This document shows positions 13,562 to 61,215 of a stretch of DNA of 64,000 bases, piece after piece. Origin of the DNA: Agapetus fuscipes (lineage: Eukaryota; Arthropoda; Insecta; Trichoptera; Glossosomatidae). The position numbers and the translations under genes are program-made. Under the pieces are notes generated by a model. It was not told the origin of the DNA and made no database searches. It worked only from the letters and a program-made list of their open reading frames with translations. Where the stretch lies: positions 4,154,001-4,218,000 of the forward strand of contig OX637338.1 of assembly GCA_951799405.1 (NCBI GenBank), read 5' to 3'. Numbering within the stretch: the first letter of the stretch is position 1; the number at the start of each line of letters is the position of its first letter.

Positions 13562-14987
13562 TTCATAATCAGATTTAATTTTTTTAACAAGTTGAGTCAA
13601 TTTTCCCATACTAAAAATTGGAAATTTAAAACGTCGATCTATAAGAGAAGTCTTTTTCAAATGACTTTTAATTTTTGCCACACATTTTGCAATGGTTTCC
13701 AAATATTTCGCAACTCTGGTCCTTCGAGCGCGTACACGGGCACCGGCCCTCCCACTAGCACTTGCCAATATTTGCTCCTTTTTTGCACACGTTGTGGCGT
13801 AATACTCACACCGACAAAATATATTCATATTTTCGCAAACCTACATGCTGAACGTACAAAAGGTTATTTAATTTTTCAATTACCGCCAAAACTGCAGGGT
13901 GCTAATGATCTTCCATCAAATATATAAACCTACCTACAAAAATAAATCAAACCTGACTTCACATACGTATGCAGTAAAGTCTCTGATGTAACAAGTGGAT
14001 TTTTTTGCCGCGGTAAGATGAAATTTTTCGCTTTGTCTTTTTATCAGCTTTCTGTAAGTTTGGATATTTTATCTCATCTGATAAAAAAGATAATAATTAT
14101 TTCAAGTTAAGTATGTGCGTACTTTATATTTTGACCTTACTGTTTTGATTTCATAATGATGCGCAATATATATATAAAAAAAAAAAAAACACTACGACAT
14201 CTGTGATTGATTTTTTATGATTACAGTTAATTGTGAAATCAGATTCAACCAGTTTATTATTATGACAAAATAGTCAACTCATCAAATGTCAGCATTTCTT
14301 TTTATCTCAGTGTACTTGTAATATACATTTTATTGATTCCGTTTTTTGAAAGTAAGATCATACATTCACGTGTACTGAAAAAAAGTGTAAATAATGTAGA
14401 CTACGAGATTTCTATTAAAAAGTGGAGAAATTTGACCGACCCAAAATCGTTTTGGAAATGATATCGGTCTTGTTCACTATTAATAAGCATGTTACAGCGT
14501 GATTCTATTAAAATTTCTGTGCAAAAGTATCACATTTCAGTCGTAAAAATTATGCTATTTTTACAGGGCTTGCCATGTCACCTTCACTGGAATTAACTAG
14601 TCATTGTTTTCTTTACTTAGTACCTACTCTAAACGCACACACCATTAAACCATCGCTGTATTTGCGTTTTCGTACAATCGTGTAAATTAATTTGCAAATT
14701 GCATCATTGTGTGAAATACTAGTAATAATGGAGCGATAAATAGAGCAGGCTTTGACATGATTCTGAATTGTTTCAATATTTCAATTTTAGTACCGAGAAT
14801 ACCGATAACACTGATTGAAAATGTGCGTGAAGCCCACCAATCTATCCCTTTGTGTTTCTTTATGAATTTTTCATGTCATACGTGAAATTTGACTTCCCGC
14901 GTCCAGAGGTAAAATTTGATAAAACTGTGGAATTTTCATGCATTTTATGCGTGTTGCTTTATTCAACTTTATTTCTGAAAATGTAGC
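13562..14987. other. AT-rich non-coding DNA
   Basis: No gene or repeat family recognised up to the 5' break of the LINE. Confidence 0.45.
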
Positions 14988-17111
14988 GTGACGTCAATGT
15001 ATTTCAAAATCGATTGTTTTATTAAATCCGATGATCCGAACGATGATGAGAACGTGTGTGGAAAAGATATTGAAAGTATGTGGAAAGATCTGAAAGAAGG
15101 AATGACTGAATGCGCTAAAAAAGTATGTGGGGTAACGAAAGGTGGAAGATTGAAAGGAGATGCCTGGTGGAATGATAAAGTGAAAGAAGCTGTGAAAGTT
15201 AAGAAAAAGTGTTATGAAAATTGGCTGAATGATAGAAATGATAGAAAGCTAGAAGACGAATATAAGATAGCTAAGAAAATGGCGAAGACTATAATTTATG
15301 AAAGCAAGATGAATGAACAAAGAAAGATTGATGAAAGGATTAACAGAAGTTACACCGACAGTAAGAAGGAATTTTGGAGGTGGATCAATGCGGATAGAAA
15401 TAAATCTTCTGCATTGACCACTCCGGGAGTCAAAAGTGCTGCCGGCGAGATGGTATGGGAGAATGAAGAAGTATGCAAGAGATGGAAGAACTATTTTCAA
15501 GAAATTTTTGGTCAGGGTGAAAGAAGAATTTATGAACAGATAGATGAAGAAAATGAATTGAATATTTTGAAAGAAGAAATGAAAGTGTCTATTTCACGTC
15601 TGAAGAATGGGAAGTCTGCTGGGTTTGATGGTATAAATGGTGAAATGTTGAAAGCAGGAGGTGAATGCTTGATAGATTGGATGTACGAATTATGTAAGCT
15701 TTGTGTGAATGCAGGAGTAGTACCGATGGATTGGAGGAAGGCAGTCATTGTTCCCATTTACAAAGGTAAAGGGGACAAAAAAGACTGTCAGAACTTCAGA
15801 CCAATCAGTCTACTCAGTATACCAGGAAAAGTCTTCTGTAAGGTGATTATAAAAAAAGTGATTCTGACTACTAGTGAAAGGATTTCCGATGTACAGTCCG
15901 GCTTTATGGCCGGTAGAGGCTGTGTTGATCAGATTTTTACTCTACGACAACTTGTTGAAAAACAATTGTCGGTGAGGCGGAAGCTGTTCACGGCCTTTGT
16001 AGATCTGGAAAAGGCTTTTGACTCAGTAGACAGAGGTATGTTATGGGATGTTTTGAAAGCATACGGAGTGAATAGGGCTCTCCTAGGTGCGGTGCATGCA
16101 AACTATGAAAATAGTAAGGCATGTGTTCGTATTGATGGTGAGTATAGTGAATGGTTTGAAGTTTATAAGGGTGTGAGGCAAGGATGTGTGATGAGTCCTT
16201 GGCTATTTAACATAGTCATGGACAAGTGTGTCAGAGATGCTAGACTTAATGATTGTGGATTGATGATAGGAGAGAGCAAAGTGAGTGTTCTACTGTATGC
16301 AGATGATGCAGTTCTTGTATCTGATTCTGCAGTAGAATTGCAAACAATGCTCTCTAGATTGAATGAAGCTTTGTTAGGTAACCATTTGAAGTTGAATGCA
16401 AGTAAGACGAAAGTATTGATTTTTGAAAGAGATGATGAAAATATGAATTATGAATTTAAAATTAATGGAATGAATGTTGATATCGTAAATGAGTTTGTAT
16501 ACCTGGGAAGTAAGTTTGAAAAAGATGGAAGAATGATCGGTGAATTTGATAGAAGAATAATGAAAGGCAGGTGCGTACTGGGTGCTACCGCTAGCATCGC
16601 CAAGAACCAGAACCTTTCAAAAAATGTTCGACTGGCGGTGCACGGTGGTATACTAGTGCCCACTCTGATATATGGAAGTGAAGCCTGGACGGTGAGTGAA
16701 AGTGAGATTAGTAAAGTCCATACAGTAGAAATGGACTACTTGAGAAGTATGATTGGGAAAAGACGGAGTGATAGGGTAAGGAATGATTTTGTTAGAGAGG
16801 AATGTGGTGTAAGAGAAAGTGTGAAAGTAAAGATTAAAAGAAGTATGCTTAGATGGTTTGGACATTTGGAGAGAATGAATGAGGAAAGACTGACGAAGAA
16901 AGTATATGCTGCGAGAATTGATGGATGTCGTGGAAGAGGAAGACCGAGAAAGGTATGGATGGACCAAATTTTCGAAATAGCGAATGAATGGGATATCCAG
17001 AGTCATAATAAAAGGAGAGCTTGTATGAAAAAGGTTATGGCTCTGGATGAAATGAAAGAAGTATGCAAGGATCGAAAGAAATGGCGGTTGATCTGTAATG
17101 CTGGCGGTTAA
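14988..17111 (+). CDS. LINE reverse transcriptase (partial pol, endonuclease missing)
   Basis: The open frame of 707 codons has no internal stop. It begins with a linker rich in WWNDKVKEAVK-type sequence (about residues 57-100), usual between endonuclease and RT in RTE-like LINEs. RT motifs follow: FRPISLLSIPGKVF, VDLEKAFDSVD with the first catalytic Asp at about residue 339, GVRQGCVMSPWLFN, and the YADD active site at residues 437-440. The C-terminus has YGSEAWT, LRWFGHLERM and RGRGRPRKVWMDQI. The listed first codon is GTG and is only the edge of the open frame, not a real start. The product would reverse-transcribe LINE RNA at the target site, but without endonuclease this copy is unlikely to be autonomous. 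Confidence 0.85.
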   Translation: MTSMYFKIDCFIKSDDPNDDENVCGKDIESMWKDLKEGMTECAKKVCGVTKGGRLKGDAWWNDKVKEAVKVKKKCYENWLNDRNDRKLEDEYKIAKKMAKTIIYESKMNEQRKIDERINRSYTDSKKEFWRWINADRNKSSALTTPGVKSAAGEMVWENEEVCKRWKNYFQEIFGQGERRIYEQIDEENELNILKEEMKVSISRLKNGKSAGFDGINGEMLKAGGECLIDWMYELCKLCVNAGVVPMDWRKAVIVPIYKGKGDKKDCQNFRPISLLSIPGKVFCKVIIKKVILTTSERISDVQSGFMAGRGCVDQIFTLRQLVEKQLSVRRKLFTAFVDLEKAFDSVDRGMLWDVLKAYGVNRALLGAVHANYENSKACVRIDGEYSEWFEVYKGVRQGCVMSPWLFNIVMDKCVRDARLNDCGLMIGESKVSVLLYADDAVLVSDSAVELQTMLSRLNEALLGNHLKLNASKTKVLIFERDDENMNYEFKINGMNVDIVNEFVYLGSKFEKDGRMIGEFDRRIMKGRCVLGATASIAKNQNLSKNVRLAVHGGILVPTLIYGSEAWTVSESEISKVHTVEMDYLRSMIGKRRSDRVRNDFVREECGVRESVKVKIKRSMLRWFGHLERMNEERLTKKVYAARIDGCRGRGRPRKVWMDQIFEIANEWDIQSHNKRRACMKKVMALDEMKEVCKDRKKWRLICNAGG

Positions 17112-40203: not shown

Positions 40204-40953
40204 TTTATTGTTGAGTTGCGTTGCGTTTGCTTGACTTCATCTTCGCGCCCCAATCATTGCAGATCAGAGCAACCATTCTATAAACAAGTCTCCACTCTGT
40301 CCTATCCTTCCACATTCTTCTTTCAGTTTCTCAACCCTCGTCGCCCTCTTCATCTATTCTCACTCTGTTGAATCTCTGATCAATCCATCAATTCCTAGAT
40401 CTTCCCATCCTTCATCTTCAACAATCAACCCACTGCGATGTCCCTAAATGGTTTTGGCACACGTGTTTTTTTTTTGTTCATGATGATTTGTGATGCAACA
40501 TCCACGTGCTGGCCTAGGTTCGTTGCTAGTAGTGCGCGACACTATCGCTCCGCCGGTTCCGCAATACGAACAGTTAGTCGGGCTGTGTGTTGGATATGCA
40601 CACAGGCCGGCCCGAGGTGGCTCACTTGCCTGTTGCCAACGCTCTACAGAGGCAAGCGCCCGTTATACCCGAATCCACCGCTGCAGGTGACAAGGAAAGC
40701 ACTTCCCTGCATTATTTCAATGCTCTATCACTTGTTGCTTATCGCACATGTAACTGTAATGTTATGTTAAACAAACTGTTATTATAATCTGTTCCACTTG
40801 TGGCCCTAAATTGCTTCCAATCTAGGAACGCTAAATATTATTATAGTTCTGTCATTGCACTTACATACTATCCACTAGGTAAATCTTCATTTGAGGTTGT
40901 TGATTCGTATCATTATGCATCTAAAAGCAAAATGAATCATTCGAATGATATTG
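40204..40953. other. Non-coding DNA up to the retrotransposon
   Basis: 40,215-40,440 on the minus strand vaguely resembles a LINE 3' end but carries no secure motif. 40,500-40,700 is GC-richer without a recognisable exon. Confidence 0.35.
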
Positions 40954-40957
40954 ATAC

Positions 40958-41473
40958 TGTTATGTAAATATAAATATTGAAATAAGTATGGGTAGTTATA
41001 GTGTTATGTAAATATAAATATTGAAATAAGTATGGATAATTATAGTTATAAGAATCCTCAAAAGTATTGGTAGGTAAGATCGATAATTATGTATAAGTGT
41101 AGAATTCTCTAGGCTAAGTAGGTATTTGTTATAATTATAGGAATACTGTATTGCATTGGTAGGTAGGATTTTGGTTGTGTCTAGGTAGTACGTGAAACAT
41201 CGAGAAGTAATAATTACTCTGGAACCGTCTGGCGACTTTAGTTCTGGATCATACTGCTCTGAAGAGTATAAAGGTGCGAATGGCCTGCAGAGCGGGCCAG
41301 TATCATAGAGACTTACAAACACATCGAAGTCATCTGATCAGTGAACCAAAACCAAGTGGAATAATCGAGAAAGTAGTGTGAAAATAAATTTTGTAACTGT
41401 GTAAAATAAATAACTATTGAAGAAGACCTGTGTATTTTTAATTTGAAGACAATTGAACCCTAATTTCGTAACA
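40958..41473 (+). repeat. 5' LTR (516 bp)
   Basis: Begins TGTTATGTAAATATAAATAT and ends CCCTAATTTCGTAACA. The first 44 bp are repeated almost exactly at 41,002-41,045. A TATA box TATAAA sits at 41,267-41,272 and a CCAGT initiator-like site at about 41,297-41,301 (32 nt downstream). AATAAA signals lie at 41,383-41,388 and 41,405-41,410. These delimit plausible U3, R and U5 regions. Confidence 0.95.
41267..41301 (+). promoter_or_regulatory. LTR core promoter (TATA plus initiator)
   Basis: TATAAAGG is followed 32 nt later by CCAGTATC. This spacing fits a pol II TATA-initiator promoter and predicts transcription start near 41,299. The identical pair occurs in the 3' LTR at 48,006-48,040. Confidence 0.6.
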
Positions 41474-42138: not shown

Positions 42139-43479
42139 ATGGCAACTAAAGTGAACGTCAAGGACCTCAAAGTCACTGAGCTTAAAAATGAGCTTCTGGA
42201 GAGGGACCTGGAGACCTCAGGAGGAAAGGCAGCCTTACAAGCACGCCTCATAGAGGCCTTGGAACAGTCAGGCGAAGACCCGGCATATTTTGTCATGGCG
42301 TCTGGAGGGGACCGCGCCTTGGACGAGCTAAATATCAGCATCAACAGTAACCTGACAGGACTGAAGACTGAGATGGCTGACAACGCCAAGACCCTGGAGG
42401 AGAAGATGGCTGACAACGCCAAGACCCTGGAGGAGAAGATGGCTGACAACGCCAAGACCCTGGAGGAGAAGATGACCACCAACCTGAAGGAAGTGGTGAC
42501 CGACCTGAAGGTGGAAATGGCTGACAACGCCAGGAATCTGGAGGAAAAGGTGTCCCGAAATCTCACAACCCTGAAAGGAGAAATGGAAGAGAAGATGACA
42601 GCCCTGAAGGGGGAAATGGAGACTCGTATATCAAGCCTGGAGGACCGTCTGCGTGCCGAGCTGGCTGACAAGTGCCAGATGGAGTCCACCAGAATATCCC
42701 CCAAAGACGGCCTTCACGACGAGACCGACCAGGGATGCTCAACTCCAACCAGGGTCACTAGAGGGGATGACGACCCTTCGCTGTCGAAGCACAACCTTCC
42801 GACCTTCGACGGGAAGACGTCGTGGGAGGAGTATTTGACCCTCTTTGAGACGGCTGCCATGATGGGAGCCTGGAGCCAGCAGAAGAAGGCTTCGGTTCTC
42901 AGCCTGTCGCTCCGAGGAGACGCTCTCAGGGTTCTGCAGGCCATACCCCTGGACAACCGTGGTGACTTTGGGCAGCTGAAGCAGCGCTTGGATATGCGCT
43001 ATGGCCACAAGTGCCTGGAGCAGCTGTACAAGTCGCAGCTGAACACAAGGGTGCAGAAGCCCAACGAGAGCCTCCAGGAGTTTGAAATGGACATCGCCCG
43101 CCTGGTACGAGACGCTTACCCGACAGCCTCCGACGACATCTGTGAGAGCTTGGCAGTGGACAAGTTCCTAAATGGATTGCGGGAATGGGAGACGCAACAA
43201 GCCGTAAAACTGGCCCATCCCAAGGCTTTGAACGAGGCGCTCAGCCAAGCTCTCGAGTTTGAGGCTGTCAAACAGTCCATCAGGGGCCACGCCAGGGTTC
43301 GTGCAGTCGAGGCAGAGGAGGTCAAGCTACCTACAACCGAGGAGCTAATTGAAAAAGTGCTGGAACGTCTGAGACCTCGAAGACGAGACCCACGCTGCTG
43401 GAACTGCGGACAGCTGGGCCACCTTAGCACCAAGTGTCCCAAGCCTCAGAAACCCAGAAAACAGGCTGCGGAAAACTAG
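42139..43479 (+). CDS. gag: Gag polyprotein with SAP-like N-terminus
   Basis: 446 codons starting at ATG in the context AAAAAAATGG. Residues about 5-43 (VKDLKVTELKNELLERDLET plus a following GGKAALQARL) fit a SAP motif, a helix-extended-helix that binds DNA or RNA. Residues 79-111 are three exact copies of an 11-residue unit MADNAKTLEEK, with a diverged fourth at about 127, inside a long charged coiled-coil stretch (about 60-200). A capsid-like retrotransposon gag domain spans about 215-385 (DGKTSWEEYLTLFE ... RLVRDAYP). A CCHC zinc knuckle CWNCGQLGHLSTKC is at residues 420-433. It would package the element RNA in virus-like particles. It ends in TAG at 43,477, overlapping pol. Confidence 0.95.
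   Translation: MATKVNVKDLKVTELKNELLERDLETSGGKAALQARLIEALEQSGEDPAYFVMASGGDRALDELNISINSNLTGLKTEMADNAKTLEEKMADNAKTLEEKMADNAKTLEEKMTTNLKEVVTDLKVEMADNARNLEEKVSRNLTTLKGEMEEKMTALKGEMETRISSLEDRLRAELADKCQMESTRISPKDGLHDETDQGCSTPTRVTRGDDDPSLSKHNLPTFDGKTSWEEYLTLFETAAMMGAWSQQKKASVLSLSLRGDALRVLQAIPLDNRGDFGQLKQRLDMRYGHKCLEQLYKSQLNTRVQKPNESLQEFEMDIARLVRDAYPTASDDICESLAVDKFLNGLREWETQQAVKLAHPKALNEALSQALEFEAVKQSIRGHARVRAVEAEEVKLPTTEELIEKVLERLRPRRRDPRCWNCGQLGHLSTKCPKPQKPRKQAAEN
43428..43479 (+). promoter_or_regulatory. Gag-pol overlap, site of -1 frameshift
   Basis: The pol frame is open only after a TAG at 43,425-43,427 and gag stops at 43,477-43,479, so ribosomes must shift -1 within these 52 nt to make Gag-Pol. 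I see no canonical X XXY YYZ heptamer. The best candidate is G GAA AAC immediately before the gag stop codon. Pol has no ATG near its beginning (the edge codon is GTG), which supports frameshifting over independent initiation. Confidence 0.7.
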
Positions 43480-46400
43480 TAAGGGTTTATGGGAAGGGGC
43501 AACCGTTGACCCACGCTGGAGAGGCCCTGAAATCTGCTGCTACTGTCGCAACCGTGAGAGGAAAAGCCAGCAGCATTTTTATCAATGGCATAATAGATGG
43601 AGTAACTCGTGAACTACTGGTGGACACGGGAGCAACCAGGACAATTCTGAGACGCGACATAGTGGCACGAGGTAAGCAGATTGCACCAACAAAGTGGTCT
43701 CTGCACACCGCCACGGGAGAGTCAGCACAGGTGTATGGGGAGACGATTGCCACCTTCCAAATTGGCAGCACCACTTTTGATCATCGGACGTTGGTGGCCA
43801 ACATTGAAGAAGACGTTATATTGGGAATGGACATACTGGACAGATTTGGGTGCAGTTTAAATTTAAAGAAAGGGTCCATTAAAATTGGAAATGAAGAAGT
43901 CATCCTGCAAAGACGGAAAGAACTGGCTGCACGTGTTATCCTAGCCAAGAATACCGAAGTGAAGGGGCGATCCGAGATGATAGTGAGTGCCCGCCTGGAT
44001 TCCAGTAGTACAAATGACCAAATCTGTATGATAGAACCGGAGAACATGGACAATGTTAACAAAGGAGTCATGGTGGCAAGAACAGTGATTCGCGCAAAGG
44101 AGACCATTCCTGTCAAGATCATGAATGTGAACAGCTACCCAGTTAAAATGAATGAAGGTTTTGTTTTGGGCAGATGCGAGAGGATAACTTCCATTGTGCA
44201 ACAGATGACAAACATGTCATGCGAAGGAAACAAATTGTCAACACAATTGGAAGCCCTGGTCCACGACGCTTCCCAAGGTCTAACCGAGGAAAACAAACGG
44301 AGAGTGAGGAGTTTGATCTGCCGCTACCAGAACATTTTCGAGGACTCTAATGGCCGTCTGGGAAGAACCAAGGTAGTGCGACATAGCATAGACACCGGAG
44401 AAGCGAGACCAATAAAACAGGCTCCAAGAAGACTACCCTTTGCAAAGCGGGAAGAAGCTGACAAGATCATCAAAGACATGAGCAAGGATGGCATCATAGA
44501 ACCATCAAGTAGCCCTTGGACATCCCCGGTGGTACTGGTGAAAAAGAAGGATGGTACCACGAGATTTTGTGTGGACTACAGACTGCTCAACGATGTTACG
44601 AAAAAGGATAGTTACCCTCTGCCAAGGATTGACGACACCTTGGACACATTGGCAGGATGCACCATTTTTTCCACATTGGACCTGAAAAGTGGCTACTGGC
44701 AAGTTGAATTGGATGCCAAAGATAAGGAGAAAACTGCATTCTCGACTGGATCTGGACTTTGGCAGTTCACCGTGATGCCATTTGGCTTATGCAATGCCCC
44801 CGCCACGTTTGAAAGGCTGATGGAGAATGTGCTGCGAGGACTGTCATGGGAAACCTGCCTGGTATACTTGGATGACATAATCATCCTGGGAAAGGACTTC
44901 AACCATCAGTTGAGAAATCTGGAGCAAGTTTTCGGGCGACTACAAGACGCTGGACTGAAGCTCAACCCGAAAAAGTGTAACCTGTTCAAGAAACAAGTAA
45001 ATTACCTGGGACACATAGTTTCTCAACGTGGAGTTGAAGTTGACCCTGCCAAAATCAAGGCAGTAAGAGACTGGCCCGTGCTGAAGGACAAACATGAAAC
45101 TAGGAGTTTCCTGGGGCTGTGCACTTATTACAGGAGGTTTGTGCCAAGATTTGCGGACATTGCAAAACCGCTCACCAAGCTTACGGAAGAAAACACTCGC
45201 TTCCATTGGAGTGATTCCTGCGCACAAGCATTTGAAGAGCTTAAGGGAAGATTAACAAGTGCCCCCATCTTGAGCTACCCACGAAAAGATGGAAAGTTCA
45301 TCCTGGATACCGACGCTAGTAATGTGGGGATAGGAGGCGTCCTTTCCCAAATACAGGATGGGCATGAGACTGTTCTGGGTTACTTCAGTAAAGTGCTTTC
45401 CAAGCCAGAACGAAATTATTGCGTGACCAGACGAGAGCTTCTTGCCGTGATAAAATCAGTGGAACACTTCCGCAAATACTTGTACGGGAGAAAATTCACA
45501 CTACGGACTGATCATGCTGCACTGGTTTGGCTTCTGAAATTCAAAAACCCAGAAGGGCAAGTGGCTAGATGGATTGAAAGGCTCCAGGAGTATGATTATG
45601 ACTCCGAACATAGACCTGGCACGCTTCATCGAAATGCGGATGCATTATCCAGACGACCATGCGCCAGTGACTGCAAACATTGCAGCAAGATGGAGGACAA
45701 GGTAGCAATTGTCCAAAGGACGACCACCGAAGATGAGGACTGGCAAGATGAAAAATTGGCGCAAGACCAACTGAATGATCCGGACTTGAAGTATGTGATG
45801 GAATGGGCGCGAGAAGGAGAAAGGCCAACCTGGGAAAAACTCGCCCCCTTATCACCAACTGTCAAGGCTTATTGGGCTCAATGGGGATCCATAGTGATAG
45901 AAGGAGGGTTTCCGAAACGAAAGATCGAGAAGGAAGACGGCACACTTAGAAGAAAGCAAACCCTCGTTCCGAGGAGCCGAGTACCGGAAATCCTTGGACT
46001 GCTGCATGGAGGAACTTCTGGAGGACATCTAGGCGTTAAGAAGACGCTGGAGAAAGTGAAAGAGCGATTTTACTGGATCAACTGCAGCGAAGACGTCAAA
46101 GATTGGTGTCGAAAATGTGTAACCTGTGCAACGGCCAATGGACCGCAAAGGAAAAGGCGAGCACCAATGCGTCAGTACAATGTTGGCAGCCCCTTTGAAA
46201 GAATTGCCATCGACATAGCTGGCCCATTTCCTACAACTGAGAAGGGTAACAAGTACATCATGGTGGTGATGGATTACTTCAGCAAGTGGGTGGAAGCTTA
46301 CTCAATCCCTAACCAAGAGGCCGTAACCGTGACTGAAGTTCTAGTTACCGAATTTATCAGCAGGTTTGGCGTACCCCTGGAATTACATTCTGATCAGGGA

Positions 46401-47696
46401 AGGAACTTTGAAGCTGCTATCTTCCAGCAAATGTGTGAGCGGCTAGGGATCTACAAGACCAGGACCACTGCGCTACATCCACAGTCTGATGGAATGGTGG
46501 AAAGGATGAACCGTACCGTGGGGAGGTACTTAGCCAAAGTAGTGTCCAGCCATCAGCGGGACTGGGACCGACATCTGCCTTTGTTCTTATTGGCTTACCG
46601 GTCGGCTGTTCAGGAAACGACGAAGAAGACTCCCAGCAGCATACTGTTTGGGCGAGAAATGCGACTTCCTTGTGATCTCAAATTTGGCTGCAAACCAGGT
46701 GAAGACCTAGCCGGAGAAGACTATGTGACAGACCTTCGCAGGAGGCTGGATGACATCCATGATCAGGTCCGCATGAACATCGGGGAAGCCAGCGATCAAA
46801 TGAAGGAGCGCTATGACACCAGAGCTGACAGCATGGGGTACAAAGCTGGTGACTGGGTGTGGCTTTTTGACCCCAAGAGGCGCCAAGGATACTGTCCGAA
46901 ACTTCAGCGTTCCTGGGACGGGCCGTACGAGATCTTGGAGCGCATCAACGATGTGGTCTACCGCATAAAAAAGAGACCAAACGGAAAACCAAGGGTCGTG
47001 CACTACAATCGCCTCTCACCATACCTAGGCGATAATGATGACCAACCAGCCCAAAAAGTACGACAGTGCGTCGCATCCGAAAGATCACCAGCCTTTGAGA
47101 CGTTTTGGGAGAACGCGAAGGCAGGGCAGAAGTTTCGCCATGGAGTGACTACAGAAGTCCACAAGGACTTATTTGAGGTCACTAGGGACCACACACTGGC
47201 ATGCAGTGTACCGGAAGATCTAGATATGTCTAGAGGAATTGCACGGGTCTTCCGATACAAATTCGGAGAACCGCAACCCTCGAGCAGCCCGCAAGGAAGA
47301 GCTCTGAGACTACCGAAGGGGCGTCAACAAGCATACTGCCTGGTTGTCCCGGATTCCAGCAACCTGGAAGAGGACTACAAGGCATTGTGGGACGGCCTTG
47401 TTGAGCTGCGTGACTACATGTTGGAGGATCAGCAGGCGCGTCTGGCAATACCGAAGATGGGTGGCGGCCGCGCTAATCGAGACTGGCGGATAATCCGGAG
47501 TATGATTGAAGCAGTGTTCTCGGGAGTCGGCATCAGCGTCATGGTGTGCTGCGAGCAAGCGCAGCCGAGAGCCAGTGGGGAGAAATCCGTGGACTGCCAC
47601 TTCTTCCTGACCACAGGGTGTCGACGTGGATCAGCATGCCCCTACCTACACAGAGTCAAGACTGTTCCGGGACGAAACAGTCTAGGTGGGGGGTAG
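43434..47696 (+). CDS. pol: Pol polyprotein: PR-RT-RNaseH-IN plus macrodomain-like and CCCH finger
   Basis: 1,420 codons, uninterrupted. Residue numbers count from the frame edge. Aspartic protease VDTGA with catalytic Asp64. RT with FCVDYR (Asp381) and YLDD at 478-481. RNase H beginning LDTDAS (Asp625). Integrase zinc site His858, His865, Cys892 and Cys895, and catalytic D927, D987, E1023 with the classic 35-residue D-E spacing. GPY/F module WDGPYEIL around 1161-1168 and VVHYNRLSPY. After that comes a ~200-residue extension rarely seen in this group: residues about 1252-1385 resemble a TARG1-type macrodomain (DLDMSRGIARVFRYKFG at 1262-1278; IPKMGGG at 1339-1345; Trp1351). A CCCH finger follows, Cys1388, Cys1396, Cys1402, His1406. 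The polypurine tract lies within the last codons. Confidence 0.97.
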   Translation: MSQASETQKTGCGKLVRVYGKGQPLTHAGEALKSAATVATVRGKASSIFINGIIDGVTRELLVDTGATRTILRRDIVARGKQIAPTKWSLHTATGESAQVYGETIATFQIGSTTFDHRTLVANIEEDVILGMDILDRFGCSLNLKKGSIKIGNEEVILQRRKELAARVILAKNTEVKGRSEMIVSARLDSSSTNDQICMIEPENMDNVNKGVMVARTVIRAKETIPVKIMNVNSYPVKMNEGFVLGRCERITSIVQQMTNMSCEGNKLSTQLEALVHDASQGLTEENKRRVRSLICRYQNIFEDSNGRLGRTKVVRHSIDTGEARPIKQAPRRLPFAKREEADKIIKDMSKDGIIEPSSSPWTSPVVLVKKKDGTTRFCVDYRLLNDVTKKDSYPLPRIDDTLDTLAGCTIFSTLDLKSGYWQVELDAKDKEKTAFSTGSGLWQFTVMPFGLCNAPATFERLMENVLRGLSWETCLVYLDDIIILGKDFNHQLRNLEQVFGRLQDAGLKLNPKKCNLFKKQVNYLGHIVSQRGVEVDPAKIKAVRDWPVLKDKHETRSFLGLCTYYRRFVPRFADIAKPLTKLTEENTRFHWSDSCAQAFEELKGRLTSAPILSYPRKDGKFILDTDASNVGIGGVLSQIQDGHETVLGYFSKVLSKPERNYCVTRRELLAVIKSVEHFRKYLYGRKFTLRTDHAALVWLLKFKNPEGQVARWIERLQEYDYDSEHRPGTLHRNADALSRRPCASDCKHCSKMEDKVAIVQRTTTEDEDWQDEKLAQDQLNDPDLKYVMEWAREGERPTWEKLAPLSPTVKAYWAQWGSIVIEGGFPKRKIEKEDGTLRRKQTLVPRSRVPEILGLLHGGTSGGHLGVKKTLEKVKERFYWINCSEDVKDWCRKCVTCATANGPQRKRRAPMRQYNVGSPFERIAIDIAGPFPTTEKGNKYIMVVMDYFSKWVEAYSIPNQEAVTVTEVLVTEFISRFGVPLELHSDQGRNFEAAIFQQMCERLGIYKTRTTALHPQSDGMVERMNRTVGRYLAKVVSSHQRDWDRHLPLFLLAYRSAVQETTKKTPSSILFGREMRLPCDLKFGCKPGEDLAGEDYVTDLRRRLDDIHDQVRMNIGEASDQMKERYDTRADSMGYKAGDWVWLFDPKRRQGYCPKLQRSWDGPYEILERINDVVYRIKKRPNGKPRVVHYNRLSPYLGDNDDQPAQKVRQCVASERSPAFETFWENAKAGQKFRHGVTTEVHKDLFEVTRDHTLACSVPEDLDMSRGIARVFRYKFGEPQPSSSPQGRALRLPKGRQQAYCLVVPDSSNLEEDYKALWDGLVELRDYMLEDQQARLAIPKMGGGRANRDWRIIRSMIEAVFSGVGISVMVCCEQAQPRASGEKSVDCHFFLTTGCRRGSACPYLHRVKTVPGRNSLGGG
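47181..47651 (+). other. Region encoding the Pol C-terminal macrodomain-like fold and zinc finger
   Basis: This is the same reading frame as pol, singled out because of its content. Macrodomains bind ADP-ribose, and some remove it from proteins. The match is to the TARG1/OARD1 branch by motif order: start TLACS, DLDMSRGIA, VFRYKFG, hydrophobic CLVV strand, IPKMGGG and a Trp six residues later, and final GISVMVC strand. By my recollected alignment the catalytic Lys and Asp of TARG1 are not conserved (Pro/Asp and Ala here), so it may bind rather than hydrolyse. The CX7CX5CX3H finger suggests RNA binding. Confidence 0.75.
47683..47696 (+). other. Polypurine tract
   Basis: AGGTGGGGGGTAG sits directly against the 3' LTR start at 47,697. 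It is G-rich with two pyrimidines and overlaps the last pol codons and stop, giving priming of plus-strand synthesis at the expected position. Confidence 0.75.
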
Positions 47697-48212
47697 TGTT
47701 ATGTAAATATAAATATTGAAATAAGTATGGGTAGTTATAGTGTTATGTAAATATAAATATTGAAATAAGTATGGATAATTATAGTTATAAGAATCCTCAA
47801 AAGTATTGGTAGGTAAGATCGATAATTATGTATAAGTGTAGAATTCTCTAGGCTAAGTAGGTATTTGTTATAATTATAGGAATACTGTATTGCATTGGTA
47901 GGTAGGATTTTGGTTGTGTCTAGGTAGTACGTGAAACATCGAGAAGTAATAATTACTCTGGAACCGTCTGGCGACTTTAGTTCTGGATCATACTGCTCTG
48001 AAGAGTATAAAGGTGCGAATGGCCTGCAGAGCGGGCCAGTATCATAGAGACTTACAAACACATCGAAGTCATCTGATCAGTGAACCAAAACCAAGTGGAA
48101 TAATCGAGAAAGTAGTGTGAAAATAAATTTTGTAACTGTGTAAAATAAATAACTATTGAAGAAGACCTGTGTATTTTTAATTTGAAGACAATTGAACCCT
48201 AATTTCGTAACA
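47697..48212 (+). repeat. 3' LTR (516 bp)
   Basis: Same length and, as far as I can compare by eye, the same sequence as the 5' LTR, including the 44-bp internal duplication (47,697-47,740 and 47,741-47,784), the TATA box at 48,006 and both AATAAA signals. Confidence 0.95.
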
Positions 48213-48216
48213 ATAC

Positions 48217-57283: not shown

Positions 57284-58723
57284 AGCGCTCTTTTTATGGC
57301 TTGTTTTTCAGTTCTCGGGACAGAAAAACGTTGCAAGGGGTCCGTTAATACATTGGCCGAAACGATAAGTTTTGGTCGGAAAAACAAAAACTTAAAACGG
57401 CGTGTGCGTTAGCGCATTATCGTGGTTTACTGATTCCGAAACGATTCCGGATTTTTATTTTTGTATTGCTTTTTGGTTGTGGTGTTTAACTTCAAAGTAA
57501 TGTTCCTCATTGACCATATGACCTTCCACACAAAATTAATGAAAAAAGGAAAATCGAAATATTTTTTAACATACCTCGTACACCACAGTGCATACATATC
57601 AACTCTTTGGCAATTTTATTTCGCGATGTAGTAATGAATAATAATTATTATAATCATCTAGTGATTACTATGTAGGTATACATTTATTATTCTCAGATGG
57701 CATCTCTCGCTAAGATTTTTATTACGCCTTACTCATTGAAAGTCGGTAAACTTTGGCAATCTGTACATAATTTACGACTTCTTTCGACACTTGAAGAGTA
57801 TCAAGTGTAAACACTCCACCCAGCAGCGATGTATCCAGTGCTTCTGCGGAATTCTGTTCGTCAATATACGCCACTTGAAAACACAAGAGATCATTATAGT
57901 AAACATTAATTTATCTTGAAACAAAAAAAACTTATTTGTACGTCTGCTGTCAATTCATTTTAAATATTTACTGTTTCGCTCATGCACTTGAAAATATCTG
58001 TAAAATATGTAAATAAGTATATAATCAAATGAAAGCTAAGCTTATCATTTATATAAGTGTGCATTCAACTCACATTTTCCTCATACATTTTTCCTGTTTC
58101 TTAAAATATCTCAAGTAATTAAAAGTTTATAAGGGCTTGTGAATTGACATTGCGAATTAATTAAAGTAAAATTCGGGATTTGGTTCGAATCCCACCGAGG
58201 ATGGTTGGTTCCAAACTCGACTACCACTTCCAACCACAATCCCCCTTATAATATAAAATGCAACGGCCTCCCCATACAAAATAATTGTGCGTTAATGGAT
58301 GACAAACTGAAGAACTCCTGAACAGATGCACGTCATATTCACAACAAATATTGTTCAGGACTTGGGATGTGCTTCCTCATCATTAATAGATTTTAAATTG
58401 TTGTTTTTAAAATAAATAAACATGATCAATCACAACACCTTTTTATGTAAAACCTATGCGAGAAACAAAACTCATTTTGACATTCGAATTTCAAATAAAT
58501 TGCCAACACTTCAACATACGCTTCAAAGTTGCCATACAAGTCAATTCTTTTTCGGTTGAATTCCGTTGAGTACCTACCTATATTCTTTATTTATTTCAAA
58601 ATTATACTTCAACCAGTTATAACATGTATTTTTTATAAATAATGACGATCGATTAGGTCAACTTTTTATATAAAACCATACTTATTGCGGCATTTAATTT
58701 TTTTAAAGTATTATTATAATATA
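57284..58723. other. Non-coding DNA
   Basis: A lone B-box-like GGTTCGAATCCCACCGAGG at about 58,182-58,200 suggests a truncated tRNA-type SINE. TCCTGAACA at about 58,316 and TGTTCAGGA near 58,352 form a short inverted pair. Otherwise nothing recognised. Confidence 0.4.
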
Positions 58724-61215
58724 CAATCTAAGTTGCATAGACGCATTAACATTTATAATTCATATTCAATGCACTACTCCACGGAGACACGAGTGAGTTT
58801 GCGCTTACAAATGCTGCATGTGTATTTACAAATAAAAATTTCAGCCTCTCATGACCATAAGCCCTGCAACTTTTGCTGACCATTTCAGCAACAGGGGACA
58901 CATTTGTTAAGTGAACCCATTTATGCGATATGGGTGGTAAGCCTCATACTAACCCTTAAGTCAAGGAATTTGATTCAACAAGGTTAAATTTAATTTATAA
59001 TCTAAAGTTGCAAAAAAAGTTATTTGATGATTCAAATTGAATGCACGCCCACAAACTGGCAAATGTCATTTCACGTTAACATATAGTTGTGGCGCTTGAT
59101 TTTTTATAAATATTAGAATATATAATCTAAGTTGCACAGATACAATAACTTTTATAATTCATATTCAATGCATGCCCCCCTGGAGACACGAGTGGGTTCG
59201 CACTTATAAATGCTGCATGTGAACTTACAAATTAAAATTAAGGCCTCTTATGAACATAAGCCCTGCAACTTTTGCCAACCTTTTCAAAAACAGGGGAAAC
59301 ATTTGTCAAGTGAACCATTGTTTGCGATCTGGGTATTCAAGCTCATACTTCCCTATCCGTCAAGGATTTGAGTTTAAAAAATCCTTCAACAACGTTAAAT
59401 TTAATTTATAATCTAAAGTTGCAAAAAAAGTTATTTGATGATTCAAATTGAATGCGCGCCCACAAACTGGCAAATGTCATTTCACGCTAACCTATAGTTG
59501 TGGCGCTTGATTTTTTTTTAATATTAGAATATATAATCTAAGTTGCACAGATACAATAACTTTTATGATTCATATTCAATGCATGTCCCCCTGGAGACAC
59601 GAGTGGGTTCGCACTTATAAATGCTGTATGTGAACTTACAAATTCAAATTAAGGCCTGTAATGAACATGAGCCCTGCAACTTTTGCCACCCTTTTCAAAA
59701 ACAGGGGAAACATTTTTCAAATGAACAATTTTTTGCAATATGGGTATTTAGGCTCATACTAACCTATAAGTCAAGGAATTTCTAATCTAATCTAAGCTGC
59801 AAGGATATATATCATTGAAGATTTATATTCAATGCATTCCCACAAGCAGACATGTATAATTTCGCGCTGGCACATGCCGCATGTGGACCTACATTATAAA
59901 AACCCAATCTCAAATGAACATAAGCCATGCAACTCTTGCCATCCTTCCCTGAAACAGGGGTGAAATTGGCAAAGTGAACCATTTTTCACAGTATGGGTGG
60001 TCAGCCGCATACCAACCTATAAGTCAAGAATTTGAGTTTGAAAAATCCTTAAACAACGTTAATCTTAATTTATAATCTAAGTTGCAAAAAAACTTATTTG
60101 ATGATTCAAATTAAATGCACACCCATAAGCTGGCAAATGTCATTTCACGTTAACATATAATTGTGGCACTTGATGTTTTTAATATTAGAATATAAATCTA
60201 AGTTGCATAGATACATTTTATATTTCATATTCAATGCATGCTTCCATGGAGACACGAGTGAGTTCCCGCTTAGAAATGCTGCATGTAAACTTACAAATTA
60301 AAATGAAGGCCTCTAATGCACATAAGCTCTGCAACTTTTGCCGACCTTTTCAGAAACAGGGGGAACATTAGTTAAGTGAACCCATTTATGCGATATGGGT
60401 GGTAAGCCTCATACTAACCCTTAAGTCAAGGAATTTGATTCAACAACGTTAAATTTAATTTATAATCTAAAGTTGCAAAAAAAGTTATTTGATGATTCAA
60501 ATTGAATGCACACCCACAAGCTGGCAAATGTCTTTTCACGCTAACATATAATTGTGGCACTTGATGTTTTTAATTTTAGAATATAAATCTAAGTTGCATA
60601 CATACATTTTATAATTCATATTCAATGCATGCTCCCAAGCAGACATGAGTGAGTTTGCGCTTACAAATGCTGCATGTGTAACTACAAATAAAAATTTCAG
60701 CCTCTCATGACCATAAGCCATGCAACTTTTGCCGACCTATTCAGAAACAGGGGGAACATTAGTTAAGTGAACCCATTTATGCGATATGGGTGGTAAGCCT
60801 CATACTAACCCTTAGGTCAAGGAATTTGGGTTTGGAAAATCCTTAAACAACGGTTATCTTAATTTATAATCTTAAGTTGCAAAAAGAGTTTTGATGATTC
60901 AAATACAATGCACACCCACAAGCTGGCAAATGTCTTTTCACGCTAACATATAATTGTGGCACTTGATGTTTTTAATTTTAGAATATAAATCTAAGTTGCA
61001 TACATACATTTTATAATTCATATTGAATGGATGCCCCCAAGCAGACATGAGTGAGTTTGCGGTTACAAACGCTGCATGTGTAATTATTACAAATAAAAAT
61101 TTCAGCCTCTCTTGACCATAAGCCCTGCAATTGTGCCGAACTTTTCAGGAACAGAGAAACATTCGTTCAGTGAACATTTTTTTAGGTATGGGAGGTCAGC
61201 CTCATACCTCATGCT
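58724..61215 (-). repeat. Tandem array of ~400-bp units built from LINE 3' tails
   Basis: Unit starts (ATCTAAGTTGCA) fall at about 58,724, 59,125, 59,536, 60,197, 60,588 and 60,985. The spacing is ~390-411 bp, except for one 661-bp interval that contains an insertion. Each unit holds one nearly complete minus-strand tail plus a second partial tail starting ATAATCTAAAGTTGCAAAAA. The last unit is only the complete-tail part. Neighbouring units differ by many substitutions, so the array is not brand new. Confidence 0.85.
59780..60022 (-). mobile_element. Later LINE-tail insertion inside the tandem array
   Basis: It begins TCTAATCTAATCTAAGCTGC and belongs to the subfamily seen at 9.2, 13.4 and 21.3 kb (GCATTCCCACAAGCAGACAT, CACATGCCGCATGTGGACC), unlike the array units around it. 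It interrupts unit 3 between AAGTCAAGGAATT and TTTGAGTTTG. Its better conservation implies a younger insertion. Confidence 0.8.

Follow-up and report, generated by a model that had tools for sequence, protein, structure and literature searches.

A stretch of 64,000 nucleotides from the trichopteran insect Agapetus fuscipes (assembly GCA_951799405.1, contig OX637338.1, positions 4,154,001 to 4,218,000; here called the window) contains a Ty3/gypsy retrotransposon bounded by long terminal repeats (LTRs), whose Pol protein extends 223 residues (669 bases) in frame past the GPY/F module of its integrase. This tail consists of a macrodomain of the TARG1/OARD1 type followed by a CCCH zinc finger. Such a fusion to a Ty3/gypsy Pol had been proposed from the DNA letters, and it is borne out by matches to TARG1 in the PDB, to an OARD1 profile and, for the finger, to Pfam.

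Structure of the element

All features of the element lie on the forward strand. Its 5' LTR (40958-41473) and 3' LTR (47697-48212) are each 516 bp long, have the form TGT...ACA, are identical at 516/516 positions, and are flanked by the target duplication ATAC (40954-40957 and 48213-48216). The Gag frame (42139-43479) encodes an N-terminal SAP domain, a coiled repeat, a Retrotrans_gag domain and one CCHC knuckle (PF02037, E 3.7e-8; PF03732, 2.2e-5; PF00098, 1.6e-5). At 42157-42264 and 42371-42474 lie, in turn, the SAP domain and a perfect 33-bp tandem repeat that encodes the coiled stretch. Counting those of the tail, the element has three modules of nucleic acid or chromatin type beyond the usual set.

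The Pol frame, measured from stop to stop (43428-47696), has 1422 codons and encodes protease, reverse transcriptase (RT), RNase H, integrase and then the tail. Pol briefly overlaps Gag and is read in the -1 frame with respect to it, so its expression is likely to involve a frameshift. The RT domain (RVT_1, Pol residues 371-531, E 6e-37) occupies 44538-45020. Within the integrase, the H2C2 motif (Pol residues 847-904, E 8.3e-18) and the core rve domain (922-1013, E 3.1e-15) occupy 45966-46466, and the C-terminal SH3/GPY-F module (GPYEILERINDVVYRI...NRLSPYL; PF22938, 3e-12; PF24626, 3.8e-7) occupies 46848-47024. The name GPY/F is our own reading of the motif; the module ends near Pol residue 1199. 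Pfam detects no chromodomain anywhere in Pol at E <= 1. The LTRs, the target duplication, the order of the Pol domains and the GPY/F module place the element in Ty3/gypsy; the assignment, made from domains and LTRs, stops at that level.

Identity of the Pol tail

The tail begins with a linker (47025-47141). In a structure model of 47040-47693, confidence is low for residues 1-11 and higher for a helix at residues 19-27 (block mean 88). The macrodomain follows at 47142-47564 (Pol residues 1239-1379), recognized by sequence, profile and structure-model matches, and the CCCH finger at 47583-47651. The strings on which the original prediction relied, DLDMSRGIARVFRYKFG, CLVV, IPKMGGG with a Trp six residues on, and GISVMVC, are all found in frame in the Pol open reading frame (43428-47696), and the finger spacing CX7CX5CX3H reads C-HFFLTTG-C-RRGSA-C-PYL-H. 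The start then given for the combined module, 47181, omits the first strand with its KDLF motif.

The top match among PDB sequences (phmmer) is human TARG1 (C6orf130), whether the query is the tail (E 8e-11) or just the domain (E 3.6e-11); the identity to TARG1/OARD1 is about 27%. A profile was built from 59 OARD1 sequences, tail excluded, chosen from 120 listed matches among the 3341 of a profile search. Against the 1207 window frames of at least 30 amino acids, it has a sole match, Pol residues 1239-1379 (59.1 bits, E 2.2e-17). Base shuffling of the 669 tail bases left none of 5000 sequences stop-free in the Pol frame. The DarG model NF048014 of NCBIfam also matches tail residues 119-183 (E 1.5e-5; 24.4 bits, with a cut-off of 250). 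A profile search empty of macrodomain matches had been named as a refutation; that outcome is seen with Pfam Macro (PF01661), which has no match to the tail at E <= 1, and is contradicted by TARG1 sequences and the OARD1 profile. Some true OARD1 proteins also lack a Pfam Macro mark, so this miss does not speak against the ALC1-like/TARG1 class. A structure model built with homologs contains the macro fold, including the sandwich, and its best fold match over the whole domain is TARG1. The domain is almost certainly a TARG1-type macrodomain. For the finger, PF00642 scores 21.5 bits in the tail alone (cut-off 20.5) and 17.5 bits in the whole of Pol; the best PDB match is CPSF4/CPSF30 (E 0.0035), and in the structure model the finger is not confidently placed (predicted local distance difference test, pLDDT, near 40).

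Active site and ligand pocket

TARG1 catalyzes hydrolysis through Lys84 and Asp125 (excerpts of PMC7050489, which prints Glu125, and of PMC8501950). Both residues are replaced in the tail, as had been suspected: Lys84, present in 118/119 OARD1 rows (1 gap), is Pro, and Asp125 (113/119) is Ala. Two further residues are also gone, Ser35 (118/119), which is Pro, and Thr83 (116/119), which is Val. The window copy shares the Lys84 and Asp125 replacements with P0001, a protein match described below; neither has the TARG1 catalytic pair. Other members of the ALC1-like class use other residues. DarG acts through Lys80 (excerpts of PMC7050489 and PMC8501950), and SCO6735 hydrolyzes without a Lys/Asp pair but needs Gln85, equivalent to Lys84, and Asn27 (excerpts of PMC9411070). 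We take Asn27 to correspond to TARG1 Ser35, where that text prints Ser26; given this equivalence, none of the three described catalytic sets is present in the tail. Because all three are absent, hydrolysis of a described ALC1-like kind is unlikely. An active TARG1-type enzyme is likewise disfavored by the replacement of Lys84 and Asp125, and, judged from its residues, the domain very probably lacks TARG1-like hydrolysis.

Binding is a separate matter. Among 117 OARD1 rows, 60 columns are near-invariant, of which the tail keeps 24 and alters 36. The 11 ADP-ribose contacts of DarG (excerpts of PMC5179494) can be transferred to TARG1 numbering, approximately, by motif and offset. At five of these 11 positions (Asp20, Leu21, Ile44, Gly121 and Gly123) the tail has the TARG1 residue; the other six are changed (C33S, S35P, L47V, T83V, L124R and D125A). 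By our reading, four of the six changes would adjoin the distal ribose and the catalytic site. From these residues, ADP-ribose binding by the tail domain is a tentative prediction, with odds a little short of even.

Copies in the host genome

The host assembly comprises 618 Mb in 148 contigs. Host contigs up to number 33 have megabase coordinates where seen, with lengths seen of 14.7-30.3 Mb, and look like chromosomes. A search with the 223-residue tail gave 1412 candidates. Scoring was limited to the best 150, and every one of these is 100% identical to the tail over its full length. The exact 1422-codon frame is present in 106 of the 150, window copy included. Eight others have longer frames (1430-1861 codons), suggesting in some of them that Gag and Pol share one frame. 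All but one of the scored matches (149/150) lie on contigs 1-14, and the last is on contig 15; since the scored set is confined to contigs 1-15, the true copy number is probably larger.

In 30 loci compared with the window at the nucleotide level, the 669 tail bases have 1-3 differences, all silent, one site differing in 30/30. The 1500 bases upstream have 1-6 differences in 28 of the 30 loci; in the remaining two an ungapped count gives 498 and 557, which indicates an indel or other sequence upstream. The fusion has thus spread in a recent burst of copies, with the tail aboard. A further copy, 229/232 identical, comes from a 996-base contig in public data. A 44-bp repeat opens the LTR (47694-47785 and 40947-41046); among the 30 copies, the 3' LTR has between 0 and 3 matches to an exact core of this unit, and LTR length varies.

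Insertion sites

The end of the 3' LTR could be located in 28 of the 30 loci. The next 4 bases are (A/G)TA(T/C), or RTAY, in 22/28, and the central TA is present in 27/28; in the window outside the element the background of RTAY is 2.1%. The 28 flanks give no sign of targeting to ADP-ribose, although reading flanks is no real test of targeting. When 13 flanks were compared with one another, in a comparison that had no control, 15 pairs had similar stretches, which suggests that repeats surround or adjoin some of the insertions.

Origin of the domain and search for other carriers

Capture of a host ADP-ribose reader, as proposed from the letters, is one candidate origin of the domain. In BLAST searches with the tail, animal and viral proteins are about level, with top scores of 76.6 and 72.4 bits, respectively. 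A 44-row tree does not decide between sources because the element sits on a long branch, 6.67 changes per column away from the midpoint root.

The same fusion, for which a search had been proposed, was found in no other Ty3/gypsy element by searches that depend on shared words, which distant carriers may escape. When the query was a Pol piece of 923 residues, scored over the final 223, none of 789 candidates matched at E <= 0.001. A query with just the domain had one match, P0001, among 7 candidates. Neither viral contigs, queried with the tail and with an integrase piece, nor genome contigs gave a match. Beyond the 120 matches listed, the 3341 of the profile search could include tails of other elements. 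Among viral loci with TARG1-like macrodomains (best 80 of 84, from IMG/VR), none carries a relative of the RT or integrase of the element (E <= 0.01). Of these 80 loci, 25 are on contigs > 100 kb, and in 1 of 79 rows Lys84 and Asp125 are both missing, in a search whose patterns favored Asp125. Eight other RT loci of the host gave no OARD1-profile match at E <= 1; at 3.5-3.8 kb they hardly reach the Pol C-terminus, so this absence says little. Among the papers listed in searches of the PMC literature under Creative Commons licenses, none deals with a TARG1-type macrodomain in a Ty3/gypsy element; subscription papers and Repbase reports are outside that scope.

Possible function of the tail

The following mechanism can be proposed. 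A Ty3/gypsy element would have acquired an ALC1-like, TARG1-type macrodomain and a CCCH finger at the integrase C-terminus, the position of the chromodomain in chromoviruses. The macrodomain would have lost most of the distal-ribose and catalytic end of its pocket while retaining residues at the adenine and diphosphate end. Most likely non-hydrolyzing, it would bind ADP-ribose, either as mono-ADP-ribose or at the ends of chains, on chromatin or other factors of the host and so tether the integrase or a Pol complex to them, with the finger binding RNA or DNA. A non-hydrolyzing ADP-ribose tether is favored because the catalytic end is gone and the adenine and diphosphate residues are kept; as a whole explanation, we give it a probability of about 0.45. 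That the tether serves integration is doubtful. A still more specific version is unlikely: the integrase of a highly successful Ty3/gypsy family with a built-in ADP-ribose reader, the counterpart of a chromodomain, that would tie integration or the replication complex to chromatin marked by poly(ADP-ribose) polymerases (PARPs) or to sites of repair, next to a finger that binds RNA.

Several observations weigh against this tether. With 36/60 near-invariant columns altered, binding could be lost. SCO6735 is active without the Lys/Asp pair, and the loss of that pair is by itself no proof of inactivity. A model made without TARG1 relatives (pLDDT 44) has no fold match at E <= 0.001, with DarG at rank 6 (E 0.21); it is too poor to tell whether the sandwich is present, and the fold assignment therefore rests on homologs. 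The finger is marginal by Pfam, though its spacing is right and the cut-off is reached in the tail alone. At the insertion sites, the local 4-bp RTAY preference could be produced by integrase alone, and the mean GC content of the 28 flanks is 0.35, versus 0.379 for the window. Finally, identical copies point to a recent burst and do not by themselves show selection on the tail; since the best 150 candidates were the ones scored, part of their identity comes from that choice.

Nearly as likely as the ADP-ribose-binding tether is a degenerate macrodomain that binds no ADP-ribose and serves, with the finger, as a scaffold or as a protein- or RNA-binding extension of the integrase. The changed columns, which include H32, C33, S35, T83, K84, C122, L124 and D125, favor this, as does the finger of RNA-binding type that comes next after the macrodomain; the pocket-lining loop residues D20, L21, G43, I44, A45, P118, G121 and G123 are nevertheless kept. 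Viral macrodomains oppose host ADP-ribosylation, and the tail might similarly bind or remove ADP-ribose that host PARPs place on the proteins, RNA or cDNA of the element. Such counter-defense is quite unlikely overall. It gains from the ability of TARG1 to strip ADP-ribose from DNA (excerpts of PMC8501950) and from the activity of SCO6735 without Lys/Asp, but SCO6735 needs Gln85 and Asn27 (excerpts of PMC9411070) and the tail has Pro at both the Lys84 and the Ser35 positions, which argues against removal; masking of ADP-ribose without hydrolysis may be the form it takes.

It is improbable that the tail is a passenger, a piece of a host gene captured by chance and copied without use. A passenger would suit the identical copies, which stem from a recent burst and are no evidence of selection. 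However, the domain has diverged far and still has an open frame, 24/60 near-invariant columns and half the pocket. We read this as long-term constraint; fast change after capture could also account for it. Chance resemblance or an artefact, to which the Pfam Macro miss and the poor homolog-free fold might point, is scarcely credible given the E values above, and is rejected: the OARD1 profile gives the tail 59.1 bits but none of 2000 residue-shuffled versions of it more than 5.3 bits.

Should the tail bind ADP-ribose, it would directly link a retrotransposon integrase to PARP signaling, and a small protein would suffice to test whether ADP-ribosylation marks or restricts retroelements. By carrying on its Pol a finger and a degraded cousin of a host repair enzyme for ADP-ribose tags, the element may be able to read a host signal. 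Run over the host genome, the Pfam Macro model scored 9 candidates; its 3 matches fall at two loci, and no tail copy is among them. P0001 likewise carries no Pfam mark. That the model overlooks the tail might account for annotation pipelines missing the domain, and other elements may carry TARG1-type domains unnoticed.

Relation to known systems

TARG1/OARD1, of the ALC1-like class, matches the whole tail domain best in both sequence and fold; the tail differs by its replaced Lys84, Asp125, Ser35 and Thr83 and by its fusion to Pol. DarG, an antitoxin, has a macrodomain of the same class, but the tail lacks the catalytic Lys, and no partner transferase was seen, none having been searched for. 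Precedents exist for both the position and the cargo. In chromoviruses a chromodomain sits directly after GPY/F (excerpts of PMC12440569 and PMC2774666). They too have an extra module behind the integrase GPY/F with a fold that elsewhere reads chromatin marks, but here it is a macrodomain with a CCCH finger. Some fish epsilon-like endogenous retroviruses carry open reading frames for a CNPase or a macro domain (Basta et al. 2009, as cited in an excerpt of PMC4977317). They are likewise retroelements with an acquired macro domain; by that description, however, it forms an additional frame in Retroviridae-like elements rather than the in-frame end of a Ty3/gypsy Pol. Orchid Ty3/gypsy elements with an AlkB demethylase (excerpts of PMC9289625) also have a captured domain related to nucleic acid modification, although there it is an additional frame encoding an active enzyme of other chemistry.

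Other features of the window

A second retroelement is represented by an RT open reading frame of 710 codons at 14979-17111 (+; PF00078, E 1e-35), of the non-LTR type by our reading. Pfam searches of 10 window frames outside the Ty3/gypsy element found nothing except this RT. Satellite-like tandem arrays with a unit of roughly 400 bp occupy 58712-61207.
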